Part shown: positions 4,541 to 39,988 of the stretch, piece after piece
Layout: each line of letters begins with the position of its first letter
Position numbering within the stretch: the first letter of the stretch is position 1
Assembly: GCA_017463185.1 (NCBI GenBank)
Contig: JAFTPS010000003.1
Location: 91,113 to 138,025 of the forward strand
Reading direction: 5' to 3'
From: Alphaproteobacteria bacterium
Lineage (GTDB): Bacteria > Pseudomonadota > Alphaproteobacteria > Rs-D84
DNA: 46,913 nt
Notes under the pieces: model-generated
The model's database searches: none
The model's input: only the letters and a program-made list of their open reading frames with translations
Told to the model about the DNA's origin: nothing
Position numbers and translations under genes: made by a program

Positions 4541-5186
4541 AATTTGTGTAATAACAATTACTGGTATATTCATAAGTGCCCGTGGAATCTTCCATTTGAT
4601 CCCCGACGACAATATAGCACGATGTGATTGATGTACTGCCCGCGGCGGACGTTCCAGTCATTGAGTTGTCTGATGGACAAATTGTGCACCCAGATGTACC
4701 GTTTGTAGAACTGCCGTAATATCCCGCGGCACAACGATAGGACGTGGATGAATAACATGTATTGCAATCACATGTTCGGGTGACTTTCTTTTGATAACCC
4801 GTATTACCCGCAGACCAATATGCGTCCGATGTACAATCGGTGCAACCGTTGCAATCTTGTTTACAGTAATAGTATGTCATAGTAGAGCTAGAACTGCCAC
4901 ACCTAAAAGTGGCACTGGTCTGCGTTCTGGTATAGCCAACTTCGCAACTATTGCACGTGTACCATGTTGCATAATCTGTGCCGTTAGACCAACATTGTTT
5001 GCTGAGTCCCAATATAGTACACCCCGGCATAGTTCCATCCAGAGCATTCACGCCAGTCATTTGGGTTGATGATGTTGGGCAAAGCGTTGTGTCCGCAACC
5101 TGAGAACAATAGGCCGTTACGGCCAATCCACGTCCGGGTTCCAGTGTCAATATACCAATAGCACAATAAATAAAAATTTTTTTCAT
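4539..5186 (-). CDS. Secreted Cys-rich protein with ephrin-receptor-like GCC module (215 aa)
   Basis: The start is placed at the ATG (5186), ten bases after CAGGAG; a TTG nine bases upstream would be too close to that site. The N-terminus is a signal peptide (KKIFIYCAIGILTL). The mature protein has more than 20 Cys, mostly in CxxC pairs, and a CaaGYYG...CxxCP module near residues 150-190 that resembles GCC2/GCC3 repeats of eukaryotic receptors. It ends in TSNCYYTN, the tail shared by its four paralogues in this window. It is probably a disulfide-rich surface or secreted protein. Its own promoter and a long structured leader (5187-5424) with an internal terminator precede it, so expression is probably set by attenuation. 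Confidence 0.8.
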   Translation of the reverse strand: MKKIFIYCAIGILTLEPGRGLAVTAYCSQVADTTLCPTSSTQMTGVNALDGTMPGCTILGLSKQCWSNGTDYATWYTCNSCEVGYTRTQTSATFRCGSSSSTMTYYYCKQDCNGCTDCTSDAYWSAGNTGYQKKVTRTCDCNTCYSSTSYRCAAGYYGSSTNGTSGCTICPSDNSMTGTSAAGSTSITSCYIVVGDQMEDSTGTYEYTSNCYYTN

Positions 5187-5424
5187 TTTGTTCAATCTCC
5201 TGATTTTGTGTTAAACAAAAACCACCCAAAAATTTTGAGCGGTCAGGAGGTTCAGAACAATCCAACGAATTGCGTGCTTATTCAATATATTCGCAACCCT
5301 CCTGACACTGGGTCAGGAGTTTTTCATCGGAATAATAAAAAATAACACACATCGTGCGTCATAAGTATGTTTTCCGATGCGTTGGCAGAGGTTCTGACGC
5401 CTCATCACGACAAAACACCGTGAC
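5187..5424 (-). ncRNA. Structured 5' leader / candidate attenuator, copy 1
   Basis: This is the leader of the 4539-5186 gene, starting about 7 nt after its -10 box. In order along the transcript: hairpin P1 (TCACG/CGTGA) at the very 5' end, and long stem P2 (CATCGGAA at 5372-5379 with TTCCGATG at 5325-5332) with an inner stem ACGCAC/GTGTGT. Next is copy-1 CTCCTGACC (5311-5319) facing GTCAGGAG (5299-5306), and the conserved sequence GCGAATATATTGAATAAGC (5276-5294). Last are copy-2 CCTCCTGACC (5241-5250) and a terminator (arms 5237-5243 and 5221-5227, then a T run) just before the ribosome-binding site. Copy 2 shares three bases with the terminator arm, so pairing it with GTCAGGAG would open the terminator. 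The same layout occurs at 11113-11356 and 46469-46661 with compensatory changes. The ligand or trigger is unknown. Confidence 0.75.
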
Positions 5425-9315: not shown

Positions 9316-9430
9316 GGCCAGCCCCCCTTGCGTTGGTTTAACTTGATATGCGCATACTAATAACATTTATCCGATTCGTGCAAGCACAAAATATATATTT
9401 CGCGGATAAAATTCAGACTATCATTTTTGC

Positions 9431-9459
9431 TTGCCAAAAATGGCGCAAAGCGGTATAAT
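9431..9459 (+). promoter_or_regulatory. Fixed promoter upstream of invertible segment A
   Basis: TTGCCA (9431-9436), 17-bp spacer, TATAAT (9454-9459). It points into the invertible segment and lies outside it, so transcription should occur in either orientation. Confidence 0.7.
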
Positions 9460-9484
9460 ATCTGGCACAGAGCGTAAAAAACTA

Positions 9485-9601
9485 TGCCGAATCTAATGGG
9501 ACGATTGTCCTCGGCATAAATTCACAAATAAAAATCCCGGTTTTTCGCATATTTTGTCCCCCTTAGTTGTGCCGAATCTAAACGTCGGTTTGCTTTCGGC
9601 A
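9485..9601. other. Invertible segment A with recombination sites (start-codon switch, OFF orientation)
   Basis: The 79-bp segment 9504-9582 is the exact reverse complement of 39282-39360, while the flanks match in the same orientation. The left site is arm TGCCGAATCTAA (9485-9496), overlap TGGGACGA (9497-9504) and arm TTGTCCTCGGCA (9505-9516). The right site is arm TGCCGAATCTAA (9570-9581), overlap ACGTCGGT (9582-9589) and arm TTGCTTTCGGCA (9590-9601). Overlap centres are 85 bp apart. In this orientation the Shine-Dalgarno, ATG and first half of the signal peptide are on the opposite strand. The downstream frame therefore has no proper start. Confidence 0.88.
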
Positions 9602-10576
9602 ACGGTAGCTATAAATACCGCGAACGCCGCCGATGGTTGTGCCGTAATAGACTCAAACGCGGCATGTTGCCATGCAACTGACGGCATTCAATGTACAGAC
9701 TCAACAGCATATTCTACTTGCAATCAATGTGAATCTGGATACGAACTTGTCTATTATACAGAACCTATTGGTGGCAAAAAAAATTCTGACGGAGACTATT
9801 GTTATGCCGCGTACTGCCGACTTTTAGAAGATGACGGCAATGATGATGCGGATACCACCTCAACCAGATTATTGGTGATGTCAGACACGGGAATTTCAGG
9901 AACTGTTTATAGACATATAGCTTTCTATGTTGATATATCTGGCGCTGACGATGACGACAATCAAGATGGGATATATGATTCTGATAATTTACCCATATTA
10001 CCAAAAGATGACAATGACAATTTCATATTCAAACCCGTATGCTATGGAGATTATTATTACCCAACGAATGGCACAGCTGTGACATGTGATTTTAATATGG
10101 ATTTATATACGGACTACCACGACGAAGCAGGTACATATACCGGTGATTTTTCTGAACTTGTTAGCAATTGTTCTGGCTGTACTTTGTGCAGAAATGGCGG
10201 CTGTGCCCACTATGAAGTTGGAGTATCCGGTTATTTACAAAAAAAATGTTATCAATATCAAGATGTAATCGGCAACTATTGTCCACTTGTGCCATCAGAT
10301 GTATATATATGTGCCGCTGGATATTATGGGACGCCAACATATAATAACGGTAATTATTCTGGTTGTAATGCGTGTATGTCTTTGGCAGATGCAGGCATAA
10401 CCGTTGTAAGCAATCCATTAGGAGTTGAAACGCTATCTAGCCCAAGCGGTTCTACCCTGGCCACTGACTGTTATGCGAATTCGGGTGATAATGATACACG
10501 CGTGACATTAAATGACGGCAAAGGCAATTTCCATTGGGACAACGATGGGTATGGAACCTGTTATTTTAGTGAATAG
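9554..10576 (+). CDS. Phase-variable secreted Cys-rich protein A (start codon switched off)
   Basis: The frame is open from 9554, but its first ten codons lie inside the reversed segment and there is no ribosome-binding site, so I read this gene as OFF. If the segment at 9504-9582 is flipped, the frame becomes MRKTGIFICEFMPRTIVG joined to LLSATVAINTANA. That is a complete signal peptide ending at ANA|AD. The mature protein is about 315 aa and rich in Cys, Asp, Tyr and Gly, with CxxC pairs. It carries the CAAGYYGTP module near residue 255 and ends in YGTCYFSE, the paralogue tail. An acidic Asp-rich stretch (GADDDDNQDG) is unique to it. Function is unknown; it is probably a surface or secreted protein. 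Confidence 0.75.
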   Translation: MSPLVVPNLNVGLLSATVAINTANAADGCAVIDSNAACCHATDGIQCTDSTAYSTCNQCESGYELVYYTEPIGGKKNSDGDYCYAAYCRLLEDDGNDDADTTSTRLLVMSDTGISGTVYRHIAFYVDISGADDDDNQDGIYDSDNLPILPKDDNDNFIFKPVCYGDYYYPTNGTAVTCDFNMDLYTDYHDEAGTYTGDFSELVSNCSGCTLCRNGGCAHYEVGVSGYLQKKCYQYQDVIGNYCPLVPSDVYICAAGYYGTPTYNNGNYSGCNACMSLADAGITVVSNPLGVETLSSPSGSTLATDCYANSGDNDTRVTLNDGKGNFHWDNDGYGTCYFSE

Positions 10577-10620: not shown

Positions 10621-11112
10621 TTATTCCGTGTAATGGCAAGAATCGGTATATATGCCAGAGCCTGTATCATCAGAAAAAGTTGTGCCAGATGGAATATAAC
10701 ATTCGGTTATACTGGTCGCACCAGCCGCAGCGGTTGTGCCATACACACCATCAGATGAGGGACAACGGGTACAGGTTCCTGAACAAGAACCGCTTTCCCC
10801 AATCACAAGTCCAAAACTATATGATGGGGTGCCATAGTAGCCCTGTTCGCATTTACAGGTATTTTTTGTGCTGCATACTACTGTATTGTGGAGCAACCTG
10901 CTGGTGGCACAGGTCACCGTAAGCGTATTTGTTGTTTCCAGAATAATGTGATTTTCGTCTGGGGCGGATACAGTTGTGCCTTCTGTACAACAATTTTCCG
11001 TACATTGCGATTCAGTCTGATTATAGGGACAGCTGGCGCAGCAGTTTAATGCCCCATCGGCTGGACAGGCGCACCATACGATGCAGCCTGCAATAATAAA
11101 AAGTTTTTTCAT
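10621..11112 (-). CDS. Secreted Cys-rich protein (163 aa)
   Basis: The start is the ATG at 11112, ten bases after CAGGAG, exactly as in the paralogue at 5186. A 34-residue upstream in-frame extension runs through the leader terminator and is not taken as coding. A signal peptide (KKLFIIAGCIVWCACPADG) precedes a mature part with CxxC clusters and the module KCEQGYYGTP, then CTRCPSSDG. It ends in YTDSCHYTE, the family tail. It has a strong own promoter and a structured leader (11113-11356). It is convergent with phase-variable gene A. Function is unknown. Confidence 0.8.
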   Translation of the reverse strand: MKKLFIIAGCIVWCACPADGALNCCASCPYNQTESQCTENCCTEGTTVSAPDENHIILETTNTLTVTCATSRLLHNTVVCSTKNTCKCEQGYYGTPSYSFGLVIGESGSCSGTCTRCPSSDGVYGTTAAAGATSITECYIPSGTTFSDDTGSGIYTDSCHYTE

Positions 11113-11356
11113 GTTGTGCAATCTCCTGATTTTTGCGTTAAACAAAAACCACCCAAAAAAATTTTGAGCGGTCAGGAGGTTGACTACAATCTTACGAATT
11201 GTGTGCTTATTCAATATATTCGCAGCCCTCCTGACCGGAGGTCAGGAGTTATTTTCATCTGAAAAATTAAAAACAGCGCGACATGCGCGCCATAGGCTTA
11301 TTTTCAGACGCGTAAGCAGAGGTAGTCACACCCCATCGCCGAAAAATCCCGGCGAC
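11113..11356 (-). ncRNA. Structured 5' leader / candidate attenuator, copy 2
   Basis: The layout is the same as at 5187-5424. P1 is TCGCCG/CGGCGA (11350-11355 with 11336-11341), starting at the predicted transcript 5' end. P2 is CGTCTGAA/TTCAGATG (11303-11310 with 11256-11263) with inner stem GCGCG/CGCGC. Copy-1 CTCCTGACC is at 11240-11248 and faces GGTCAGGAG at 11228-11236. The conserved GCGAATATATTGAATAAGC is at 11205-11223, copy-2 CCTCCTGACC at 11170-11179, and the terminator arms at 11166-11172 and 11148-11154. P1, P2 and the inner stem differ in sequence from copy 1 but keep pairing, which supports a real RNA structure. Confidence 0.75.
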
Positions 11357-11422: not shown

Positions 11423-12331
11423 TTAGTCGGCGCGGGGGTGGGCGTGGTTATAAATTTCGGTAATTTCCGACATATTAACACGCGTGTACAATTGCGTTGT
11501 GGACAGGGACGCGTGTCCCAATAATTCCTGTAAGGTACGCAAGTCTGCCCCATCTGACAACAAAGCGGTTGCAAAAGTATGACGCAATGCGTGTGGTGTT
11601 ACATAGTCTGGCAATTGTAAATAATTGCGCAGGTTTTCAACAACCTTTTCCGCCATACGCGCCGTCATAGGCAGACCACGAACACTGCGGAATAATTCAT
11701 CGTCCGCGGCATTTCCAAACGGACGCACGTCAACATATCTATCAATCGCAGTCCAAACCGCAGGCAAAACCGGGACCAGGCGTTCTTTGTTGCCCTTGCC
11801 CACAATGCGCAGGATATCGGGGTGTGCGGCTATGTCGCGATTGCGCAGGGATAAAGCCTCGGATATTCGCAGACCACAGCCAAACAGCAATAAAACCAAT
11901 GCCCAATCGCGCGCCGCAATCCAGGGATTTTTTCCGTCCAGTTCGCGGATGGCATCGTTCATATTTTCCACATCAATTGGTTCAATGGCCTTAGACAATT
12001 TTCGTGGGACGCGCGGCGAAGAAATTAGGCTTATGGCTTCGTTTTGTATGCCGTGGTGTTTCGCCAGGTATTTGAAAAATCCGCGCAATGATGATAATGC
12101 CCGCGCCGTTGATTTATGTGCCAGTCCCCGTCGCCCACGGTCTGCCAAAAACGCACGAAAGCAAACTGTGTCCACACAGGCCAAATCGCGCGGAAGCGCG
12201 GGCGCATTTGTATAATTTTCATAAAAAGAAATAAAATCGCGGATATCCATGTCATAGGCGGCGGCTGTGTGGGACGAATAATTTTTGGTCCCAGTCAGAT
12301 ATTCCAGAAAATCCGCAATGATTTCATTCAT
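11423..12331 (-). CDS. xerC: Tyrosine recombinase, XerC-like
   Basis: This 302-aa site-specific recombinase has the full catalytic set: Arg155 (GLRISEAL), Lys in KGNKERLVP (179-187), His247 and Arg250 (HALRH), His273 (LLGHASLSTTQ) and nucleophile Tyr282 (QLYTRV). The N-terminal SAM-like core-binding domain spans about residues 1-105. Family knowledge says XerC pairs with XerD to resolve chromosome dimers at dif. It is the only recombinase in the window and lies 0.9 kb from invertible gene A, so it is also a candidate invertase for the 12-8-12 sites described here. That link is inference. It follows the SIMPL gene by 7 bp in the trpS operon. Confidence 0.88.
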   Translation of the reverse strand: MNEIIADFLEYLTGTKNYSSHTAAAYDMDIRDFISFYENYTNAPALPRDLACVDTVCFRAFLADRGRRGLAHKSTARALSSLRGFFKYLAKHHGIQNEAISLISSPRVPRKLSKAIEPIDVENMNDAIRELDGKNPWIAARDWALVLLLFGCGLRISEALSLRNRDIAAHPDILRIVGKGNKERLVPVLPAVWTAIDRYVDVRPFGNAADDELFRSVRGLPMTARMAEKVVENLRNYLQLPDYVTPHALRHTFATALLSDGADLRTLQELLGHASLSTTQLYTRVNMSEITEIYNHAHPRAD

Positions 12332-37707: not shown

Positions 37708-38946
37708 TTATTCTTCGTATGTACATTGGTACCAATCACTGCCGTCGCGATATTCATATGTACCGGTGGTATCGCTGCCCATAAATTCAACACACGATGT
37801 ATCATCATATGATGAATAGTCGCTGTACAAACAATCCGTTGTGCTGGCATAGCCCTGGCCCCATTCATATCCATAGTCGCCAGTACCAGACACCCCCGTA
37901 CAATCCGACAGGCTGGCTGTATAGTTTGCCCAGGTCATTCCATTGCCGGGACAATCGCGACAAACAACCTCTGTATCCGGGTCGCCGTCAACATAGTATG
38001 GAAAACTGCCCGCGGGACAATATACATAATTGCCATCACATATCGCATTTATTGGACAATCACGATAGTCGTATTCTTCGCTGCCGGCATAATTATACAT
38101 ATCATATCCGTCACCACCCGTTACACAGGCTGCATCGGACGCATTATAACCATAGCCCTCGTCACAATATGGGGTACAGGTGCTGCTGGTGTGCCAGGCG
38201 GCACTGTTATAGCCACCGTTTGCTAAATCGCCACAATAAACACAACTGGTCCCCGATAATTTATATCCCGACGCACAACCATCATACTGATTGACCCGGG
38301 TGGTTGTGCCATCGGCATTGGTGATTGTATAATAGCAAGCTATCTGAGAGTCACTAAACATCTGATTTCCGCCCTCAAAATAGTAATATGGATCCATTGC
38401 AAACTCGGCGGCGGAACCGTTATGAAAATCGTTGCAATCGCCAAAGGTTTCCTCGTGATAGCCCGTACCACAATAATTGCGCAATGTGATATATTCGTTT
38501 AATACATATTGGCCATCACAGCCGCTGGTGTACGCGCCTTCTACGGCCTCTAACATAACCCAATTGCCCGATACATCACAGGCAAAAACACCATCGCCAT
38601 ATTCACCATCAACATTTGGACCATAACCCTCAAAATAAGAACCATTGGGTAAAATTTCAACTATGTTATATGTGGATGATGAATAGCGCGTACACGCACC
38701 ATTACAACTGTAAATCGTTGTGCCGGCGGTGGGGGTACCTTCACTGCCACTGCGGGCGAATGCACATGTACGGTCATAGCCATATACCCGTAAATTTGCG
38801 CTGGTATATGCACCATCTACATAGTCGTAGCTGGTACTGATAGCGTTGCCATCCGCATCGTAAAAATATGTATTTTCACTGGCGACAGCGGGCAAGGCTA
38901 TGCAAACGAACATTATCACGCACAGTATTTTGTTTATTGTTTTCAC
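37708..38946 (-). CDS. Phase-variable secreted Cys-rich protein C (promoter switched off)
   Basis: The start is the GTG at 38946 after GGAAAGGAGAG; a longer frame to 39123 passes through the invertible segment with no ribosome-binding site and is rejected. The 412-aa product has a signal peptide (INKILCVIMFVCIALPAVAS) and a long Cys/Tyr/Gly/Asp-rich mature part with repeated CxxGY and CxxC units. It is the longest paralogue in the window. It ends in GSDWYQCTYEE, a variant of the family tail. The only strong upstream promoter lies in an invertible segment and points away, so I read the gene as OFF. Confidence 0.78.
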   Translation of the reverse strand: MKTINKILCVIMFVCIALPAVASENTYFYDADGNAISTSYDYVDGAYTSANLRVYGYDRTCAFARSGSEGTPTAGTTIYSCNGACTRYSSSTYNIVEILPNGSYFEGYGPNVDGEYGDGVFACDVSGNWVMLEAVEGAYTSGCDGQYVLNEYITLRNYCGTGYHEETFGDCNDFHNGSAAEFAMDPYYYFEGGNQMFSDSQIACYYTITNADGTTTRVNQYDGCASGYKLSGTSCVYCGDLANGGYNSAAWHTSSTCTPYCDEGYGYNASDAACVTGGDGYDMYNYAGSEEYDYRDCPINAICDGNYVYCPAGSFPYYVDGDPDTEVVCRDCPGNGMTWANYTASLSDCTGVSGTGDYGYEWGQGYASTTDCLYSDYSSYDDTSCVEFMGSDTTGTYEYRDGSDWYQCTYEE

Positions 38947-38977: not shown

Positions 38978-39094
38978 GACCGTGGGAAAACGGTCCTTTG
39001 GATTCGGCATAAAATCCAATTGACAAAGCCCCGATTTCCGCGGTAGAATATATATGAATAAATGCCGAAAATAATGGACCGTTTGGATTCGGCA
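38978..39094. other. Invertible promoter segment C with recombination sites (OFF orientation)
   Basis: The left site is arm GACCGTGGGAAA (38978-38989), overlap ACGGTCCT (38990-38997) and arm TTGGATTCGGCA (38998-39009). The right site is arm TGCCGAAAATAA (39063-39074), overlap TGGACCGT (39075-39082) and arm TTGGATTCGGCA (39083-39094). AAACGGTCC and GGACCGTTT form a perfect 9-bp inverted repeat. The segment between is 79 bp and overlap centres are 85 bp apart, the same as at loci A and B. It contains a strong promoter on the plus strand. Confidence 0.75.
39020..39049 (+). promoter_or_regulatory. Invertible promoter, pointing away from gene C
   Basis: TTGACA (39020-39025), 18-bp spacer, TAGAAT (39044-39049). 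Transcription to the right ends at the terminator at 39123-39147. Inversion would aim it at gene C. Confidence 0.7.
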
Positions 39095-39122: not shown

Positions 39123-39147
39123 CCGCGCCGCGCGGCGTTTTTTTATT
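39123..39147 (+). terminator. Terminator catching the outward promoter
   Basis: CGCCG/CGGCG hairpin followed by seven T. No plus-strand gene precedes it, so its likely role is to stop transcription from 39020-39049 and insulate gene B. Confidence 0.7.
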
Positions 39148-39208: not shown

Positions 39209-39237
39209 TTGCAAAAATGGGTTGAATGTGGCAGAAT
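39209..39237 (+). promoter_or_regulatory. Fixed promoter upstream of invertible segment B
   Basis: TTGCAA (39209-39214), 17-bp spacer, CAGAAT (39232-39237). It is similar in sequence and position to the promoter at 9431-9459. Confidence 0.65.
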
Positions 39238-39262: not shown

Positions 39263-39379
39263 TGCCGAATCTAATGGGACGTTTAGATTCGGCACAACTA
39301 AGGGGGACAAAATATGCGAAAAACCGGGATTTTTATTTGTGAATTTATGCCGAGGACAATCGTCGGTTTGACTTTGGCG
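39263..39379. other. Invertible segment B with recombination sites (start-codon switch, ON orientation)
   Basis: The left site is a perfect palindrome of arms TGCCGAATCTAA (39263-39274) and TTAGATTCGGCA (39283-39294) around overlap TGGGACGT (39275-39282). The right site is arm TGCCGAGGACAA (39348-39359), overlap TCGTCGGT (39360-39367) and arm TTGACTTTGGCG (39368-39379). The 79 bp 39282-39360 are the exact reverse complement of 9504-9582. In this orientation the segment carries AGGGGGA and the ATG at 39314, in frame with the gene. Confidence 0.88.
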
Positions 39380-39988
39380 TTGGGGGGCGTAAATAGCGCA
39401 ATGGCGTATTTGCAAGTGTCCGCCGGAAGTGCCGTTGGAACATATTGTTATTCTGATTGTACTTGGGCTGGGTGTTTAGTGGTTGTTGCGTGTGATTGTA
39501 CATTGGATATGGGGGCCACATTGGACAGTTGTTCAAATGATGATAATTATTCGTGTACACTGGGTACGTCGGGTGGTGTTTCCTATTTTTGCGATACATC
39601 TGGGGAAAGTGCGTGTTCATTCTGTGGTTGTAGCAGCAGATATTTGACGGATTGGGGCAGTCCCAATTCCAGCGGTGTTGTGACACGCACATATGAAACA
39701 GTTGATGATTCCAGTTACGAGTATTGCACATCCACGACACAAACGCATTATGGTTGTACGGCGGGGTATTATAAAACCAGTGGAGCGGCTTCGTATGCGG
39801 GGACAATATATTGCGGGAAGTGTCCGTCCCACCAAACAACGTCTGGGACCGTTTATGGTAATACCAGTAACGGCAATAGAAGCGATAGAACTGCCTGTTG
39901 GTTGCCGGCAGGTACCACCAGTAATTTTTCAGATGGCTCTGGTTCAGGAACACAGAGTTTTGAATCAACGTGTTATTACAGCAACTAA
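39314..39988 (+). CDS. Phase-variable secreted Cys-rich protein B (ON)
   Basis: ATG at 39314 lies 6 bases after AGGGGGA. Both are inside the invertible segment, which also encodes residues 1-15. The frame then continues into fixed DNA to complete the signal peptide, ending near VNSAMA. The 224-aa protein has about 20 Cys, CxxC pairs, the module GCTAGYYKTS and CGKCPSHQT, and ends in FESTCYYSN. It is the member of the inverted pair that is currently expressible. A terminator follows the stop. Confidence 0.82.
   Translation: MRKTGIFICEFMPRTIVGLTLALGGVNSAMAYLQVSAGSAVGTYCYSDCTWAGCLVVVACDCTLDMGATLDSCSNDDNYSCTLGTSGGVSYFCDTSGESACSFCGCSSRYLTDWGSPNSSGVVTRTYETVDDSSYEYCTSTTQTHYGCTAGYYKTSGAASYAGTIYCGKCPSHQTTSGTVYGNTSNGNRSDRTACWLPAGTTSNFSDGSGSGTQSFESTCYYSN

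Follow-up and report, generated by a model that had tools for sequence, protein, structure and literature searches.

The 46.9-kb window analysed here (the whole stretch of DNA, from a 1.04-Mb alphaproteobacterial genome of the Rs-D84 lineage in 15 contigs, 94% complete) carries two copies of a short start cassette, at 9.5 kb and 39 kb, in opposite orientations. They are very probably two members of a larger set of invertible cassettes spread over the genome, which a serine recombinase of the Mpi family likely flips; at the two loci, inversion would switch translation and export of a protein predicted to be exported, while the promoter stays outside. Enterousia/Rs-D84 is described as genome-reduced in the available part of the source (PMC12306168). 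A preliminary description of the window had proposed site-specific inversion of a cassette made of a translation start and part of a signal peptide, and every sequence element of that proposal checks out. The present analysis adds the enzyme, the other cassettes, a promoter cassette at 38978-39094 and a palindrome at the segment midpoints. Opposite orientations, paired sites at a fixed spacing, a fitting reading phase and the occurrence of both orientations (at gene B and at one orthologous locus) can be read directly from the assemblies and predicted proteins.

As had been described, reverse-complementing the 79 bp at 9504-9582 gives 39282-39360 without a single difference, and the flanks (TGCCGAATCTAATGGGACG to the left, CGTCGGTTTG to the right) keep one direction at both loci. 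An exact match of 79 bp is not chance. Each locus consists of two 32-bp imperfect palindromes (the sites) 85 bp apart, and the exchange points are likely their central dinucleotides. Exchange there would make the flipping unit 83 bp (9502-9584 and 39280-39362); the 79-bp match stands, and its equation with the unit of inversion gives way. At 39 kb the ON segment supplies the Shine-Dalgarno sequence AAGGGGG, a 7-nt gap, ATG and 16 codons in frame. Reading on across the right site, this frame yields a Cys-rich protein whose signal-peptide-like start is MRKTGIFICEFMPRTI followed by VGLTLALGGVNSAMA. At 9.5 kb the Shine-Dalgarno sequence, ATG and signal-peptide start lie reversed, and the reversed reading stops five codons beyond the exchange, directly behind the left site. 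A flip would restore an in-frame signal peptide, with the gene A flank open for 329 residues in the fitting phase; the "half" signal peptide attributed to the segment is residues 1-16 of about 31, judged by inspection. The promoter had been placed outside the switch, and a promoter-like site does lie outside the 9.5-kb cassette at 9431-9459, where the scanned region around the locus yielded one such site against 0.8 expected. The same promoter-like site stands upstream of the C6 and C13 copies (C1, C6, C13 and so on are contigs of this genome). The element is present four times, three OFF at C1:100597 (9.5 kb), C6:15432 (100% over 117 bp) and C13:227130 (92%), and one ON at C1:130375 (39 kb).

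Both orientations of one locus, the criterion for phase variation, occur in nature for gene B and for an orthologous locus in two species. The wider comparison covered 59 genomes of the genus (G numbers, with this genome as G000), their loci (L numbers) and related proteins (P numbers). P0004, a predicted protein on a 1,466-bp contig, is 98% identical to the 39-kb product and begins MPNLNVGLTLALGG (MPNLNVGL), in which PNLN is the reading of the left site's inner half after the segment is turned. Given this inverted-junction N-terminus, the 39-kb locus occurs in both orientations, with gene B read as ON in the window and OFF in P0004. The 9.5-kb gene is likewise OFF in P0002 (a 98% identical protein), and the more distant relatives P0003 and P0005-P0007 also start with MPNLNVGL. 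At the orthologous locus (L016 versus L037) the upstream flanks are 93% alike and the downstream DNA 77% alike; the segments agree at 95% when one of them is reverse-complemented, and at 48% when both are read the same way. Mixed orientations in related genomes, which the preliminary description had proposed looking for, are thus found. It had also held that a single orientation everywhere, or an assembly error, could overturn the switch; P0004 and L016/L037 counter this.

That these copies are a dispersed repeat or an assembly error, produced by gene conversion between paralogous leaders or by misassembly, is highly improbable. Contigs C3, C4, C6, C8 and C15 of this genome do end near such sites, but gene B shows the opposite junction in P0004, which led to the rejection of assembly error, the orthologous locus differs in orientation with flanks conserved on both sides, and both orientations are found in other species with quite different segments. 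Sites within about 240 bases of contig ends are seen in those five contigs, in G012 (C3, C4) and in G020 (C5, C9), a pattern that would follow from assemblies breaking at these repeats or where orientations are mixed.

In the ON state of the proposed inversion switch, a transcript from the outside promoter would carry the Shine-Dalgarno sequence, the start codon and a complete signal peptide. In the OFF state, the Shine-Dalgarno sequence, start and signal-peptide half would be reversed, the signal peptide would lack its charged start, and OFF cells would export no product. By inspection, no Shine-Dalgarno sequence precedes the remaining GTG and TTG codons of the OFF form. Inversion could also switch transcription if the OFF leader folded into a terminator or were unstable, as in the cwpV switch of Clostridioides difficile. 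There too the promoter lies outside, with the invertible segment downstream, and the segment, as far as the available part of the report goes, holds neither promoter nor reading frame, OFF being explained by a terminator (PMC2784873). Some G020 cassettes hold terminator-like hairpins in the segment as well. A transcriptional switch at the start cassettes is nevertheless unlikely. Unlike in cwpV, the segment holds a start codon, in fitting phase in 26 of 30 start cassettes, a feature superfluous in a pure leader switch, and the hallmarks of a cwpV-type leader are lacking. No terminator-like site lies in 9380-9700 and the leader folds are near those of shuffles (z -2.2 ON, -1.4 OFF), on which grounds a terminator was rejected as the OFF mechanism.

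The sites themselves point to the type of enzyme. Among 82 paired sites, 76 have a spacing of 83-86. The site core played no part in finding pairs; after removal of L157 and L178 as false pairs, and then of near-duplicates, 53 pairs were left for a test of the core. The central dinucleotide is equal within 50 of these 53 pairs, and the four neighbouring positions agree in 35, 36, 47 and 46; the three central mismatches (L018, one base short; L176; the first pair of L205) were retained. Among cassettes, the dinucleotide differs (AC, GT, GA, AA, GC, TC, TA). Such agreement at the centre with freer neighbours fits the 2-bp crossover of serine recombinases, not the 6-8 bp overlap of tyrosine recombinases.

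The sole PF00239 protein (serine recombinase) in the genome is encoded at C14:11719-12330. It scores 299.5 bits against a cut-off of 272 for the NCBIfam model NF009949, which places it in the Mpi invertase family. Among proteins of solved structure, DNA invertases and resolvases are closest to it, and its closest named relatives come from gut alphaproteobacterial metagenome-assembled genomes, including Candidatus Enterousia excrementavium at 83%, by which the genus would be Enterousia. Orthologues (at least 75% identity) are present in 23 of the 59 genomes; the median number of site matches is 4 in carriers and 0.5 in the remaining 36 genomes (Mann-Whitney p 6e-6, a test that ignores relatedness), and at least two sites are found in 18 of 23 carriers versus 5 of 36 other genomes. 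Because of the dinucleotide agreement, this co-occurrence and the weaker tracking by tyrosine recombinases, C14:11719-12330 is the likely enzyme. A scan of the 23 recombinase loci for cassettes gave nothing that points to self-control: site-like matches occur in 6 of 23, a known site only in L145 (G071:C7:24080), and the strict palindrome in one, L140.

A tyrosine recombinase might instead make a real inversion, whether XerC, XerD (C13:92833) or a 388-aa integrase (C6:126123). The genome has these three PF00589 proteins; XerC lies at 11423-12331 of the window, 0.8 kb beyond the end of gene A and hence near the 9.5-kb locus, and this nearness was considered, and rejected, as a ground for taking it as the enzyme. 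The 13+6+13 arm-core-arm geometry of the sites could suit such an enzyme, and genomes with extra tyrosine recombinases tend to have more sites (rho 0.37, p 0.004), a weaker correlation than that of the serine recombinase (rho 0.49). This alternative is rather improbable. A tyrosine switch should have the same 6-8 bp overlap in both sites, but core mismatches occur in many pairs (the window sites, with GGGACG and CCGACG, differ within what would be the 6-bp overlap), and near-constant agreement is confined to the central two positions. At least two PF00589 proteins are present in 57 of 59 genomes, with or without sites, and at least two sites are found in four of the seven orthologue carriers that have just two tyrosine recombinases.

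The cassettes extend well beyond the window. Allowing three mismatches, the site pattern occurs at 30 places in this genome, at least one of them apparently by chance, and the reversed control at none. Six start cassettes with Shine-Dalgarno sequence and ATG were recognised, namely the four copies above, C14:20388 and C13:241367, and only C1:130375 is ON; C14:20388, ON by script, was scored OFF, with a signal-peptide-like frame in fitting phase lying behind it. Fifteen promoter cassettes with the same kind of site were examined, and cassettes lie mostly beside signal-peptide genes. The promoter faces away from the signal-peptide-like gene in 13 of the 15 (in one of these, L159, another gene is also ahead of the promoter), faces it in one (C2:12977), and one cassette is cut by a contig end. 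A terminator-like hairpin stands 45-48 nt past the promoter-faced exchange point in 11 of 15, and ahead of an away-facing promoter it would silence that promoter in the OFF state. Three further promoter-type sites near contig ends (C3:13408, C4:10061, C6:174147) were kept outside the 15. The promoter cassette in the window carries TTGACA-18-TAGAAT at 39020-39049 (+), facing away from the gene at 37708-38946; a promoter inside the segment, as in fimS-type switches, is found here and not in the two start cassettes. This OFF promoter cassette adjoins that gene and lies 168 bp from gene B's ON start cassette.

Across the genus, the site pattern is matched at least once in 37 of 59 genomes, some by chance; cassette counts outside this genome come from a chosen sample among the matches listed. 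The 30 start cassettes divide into 10 ON and 20 OFF by script and 9 and 21 by eye (L020 and L154 changed to OFF, L033 to ON). The phase in 26 of 30 fits by script (chance 1/3, p 2e-9, a statistic that ignores relatedness), and a promoter-like site lies outside in 24 of 30. Promoter cassettes facing their own gene in other genomes are L069, L188, L190 and L203. Other arrangements also occur. L021 1504-1641 (G032:C84) is a promoter cassette with 106-bp spacing between divergent paralogous genes whose products begin nearly alike (MKKLLFLPFLTLACF and MKKLLFLPILTLACF), and it is likely a two-way selector between them. The cassettes at L194-L201 (G020) leave the gene's own ribosome site outside and enclose a hairpin resembling CCCGGATTTCTGGGATTTTTT; this may be an invertible terminator or merely the midpoint palindrome beside a T tract. 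L205 834-1032 (G025:C3) has three successive sites between divergent genes and looks like a start cassette plus a promoter cassette with a common middle site.

Besides the paired sites, the segments have a common central near-palindrome, roughly AAAAAnCCCRGAAATCYGGGnTTTTT. In 49 non-redundant segments (spacing 83-86 only), CNGAAATCNG at no more than two mismatches lies within 1 bp of the midpoint in 41, with every payload type. Shuffled segments give 0.8, a contrast inflated by the pattern having been drawn from the same segments, and none of twelve off-centre positions exceeds 3 of 49. The palindrome is still central (offsets 0.0 and +0.5, one mismatch) in the two cassettes whose spacing, 106 and 107, is larger by two helical turns; the off-centre comparison and these longer cassettes are better support than the shuffles. 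In the window it has two mismatches in both start cassettes and none in the promoter cassette. In promoter cassettes the palindrome is the spacer between -35 and -10, and in start cassettes it encodes residues 2-5. Because its position is kept under such different payloads, a DNA site with a part in inversion, a third cis element, is the best explanation; its sequence would dictate those residues and that spacer.

The invertase would bind both sites. Their pairing may be helped by a symmetric accessory protein bound to the midpoint element, which lies some 42 bp, or four helical turns, away from either exchange point; exchange at the central dinucleotide would then turn the 83-bp segment. We lean slightly towards the broader view that a flip module of three cis elements, with a palindrome that must be bound, runs the genus's exported repertoire through varied payloads (translation start plus signal peptide, promoter, two-way promoter), and that the start version may form a distinct class of translation and export switch.

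Several observations weigh against the inversion system proposed here. The evidence consists of assemblies and predicted proteins, and P0004 is a predicted protein only, without DNA context. GTG or TTG codons could serve as entry to the OFF body, the reading that gene callers take for P0002 and P0004. No recombinase orthologue was found in G026 despite its six site matches; G006, G023, G076 and G077 have 2-3 site matches, some chance-like; five carriers (G003, G010, G017, G061, G062) have 0-1; and extra tyrosine recombinases also track site number. The palindrome is missing at the threshold used in 8 of 49 segments, and lies off centre in two pairs at spacing 95, which are perhaps mispaired.

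Table. Predicted switch elements and associated genes in the window.
Feature	Coordinates	Strand	Details
Left recombination site, OFF locus	9485..9516	+	central dinucleotide GA at 9500-9501
Right recombination site, OFF locus	9570..9601	+	central dinucleotide TC at 9585-9586
Invertible segment, OFF orientation	9502..9584	-	ATG 9548-9550 and AAGGGGG 9558-9564, both minus strand
Midpoint palindrome, OFF locus	9538..9547	.	2 mismatches to CNGAAATCNG; centre 0.5 bp off segment midpoint
Promoter-like site outside cassette	9431..9459	+	TTGCCA-17-TATAAT, 11/12; faces 9.5-kb gene
Gene A body (OFF)	9585..10576	+	329 residues open from exchange point; Cys-rich; no Pfam match at E 0.1
Left recombination site, ON cassette	39263..39294	+	
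Right recombination site, ON cassette	39348..39379	+	encodes part of signal peptide
Invertible segment, ON orientation	39280..39362	+	AAGGGGG 39300-39306, ATG 39314-39316, midpoint palindrome 39317-39326
Weak promoter-like site outside ON cassette	39209..39237	+	TTGCAA-17-CAGAAT, 8/12; missed by stricter scan
Gene B (ON)	39314..39988	+	224 aa, Cys-rich, signal-peptide-like start; OFF form is P0004
Promoter cassette	38978..39094	-	sites 38978-39009 and 39063-39094, segment 38995-39077; OFF
Terminator-like hairpin and T run	39123..39145	+	downstream of OFF-facing promoter
Gene behind OFF promoter cassette	37708..38946	-	412 aa, Cys-rich, signal-peptide-like, GTG start; no Pfam match at E 0.1

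A search of the genome contigs with gene B found no relative, and six proteins (five switched-locus products of this genome or G029, and one relative) gave no Pfam match at E 0.1. The AlphaFold model of gene B has a mean pLDDT (predicted local distance difference test score) of 27 and was not used. An Rfam scan of the window found two tRNAs and nothing else. The window also holds a stretch repeated at 5169-5324 and 11095-11253 (88% over 97 nt, 78% over 64 nt), in which an inverted repeat of the GTCAGGAGG type occurs; the stretch has no relation to the cassettes.

Among the closest known systems is the Mpi regulon of Bacteroides fragilis: the recombinase here passes the NCBIfam Mpi model, and the system would work like that regulon as set out in the available part of the report (PMC4747536). 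A master invertase acts in trans on many scattered regions, and this may hold here too, where many scattered cassettes have one kind of site and recombinase gene and sites co-occur with exceptions. Unlike it, the present system occurs in an alphaproteobacterium, with short cassettes of about 83 bp and, perhaps as a further difference, a midpoint palindrome, and besides promoters its payload includes a Shine-Dalgarno sequence, a start codon and half a signal peptide. In the Vsa and Mpl systems of Mycoplasma, also from small genomes, inversions switch surface proteins, and the available text describes Mpl genes with individual invertible promoters (PMC2268961). In Vsa, silent genes of a cluster are joined to a single expressed 5' part, whereas here scattered genes each keep their own flipping start. 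In the accessible part of one paper, inversion signatures were found in 0 of 4 alphaproteobacterial samples (PMC5903667). A comparable inversion of a start codon did not appear in the titles and abstract openings of the open-access papers listed, a scope that does not take in the main work on intragenic inversion, and in the same search neither the repeated start cassette nor the midpoint element was found. The work of Chanin in 2024 and of Milman in 2023 is said to describe intragenic or gene-altering inversions that overlap coding sequence. Unlike those, a standard start module recurs here at many genes, with one likely invertase and exchange inside the signal peptide.

Well-known DNA-inversion switches move a promoter. 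In these bacteria of about 1 Mb, one likely invertase appears to move either promoters or a translation start together with half a signal peptide. How a serine invertase brings together sites 85 bp apart can be approached by experiment through the midpoint palindrome, and assemblies alone may be enough to call such switches by their combination of two sites, fixed spacing and a central dyad.
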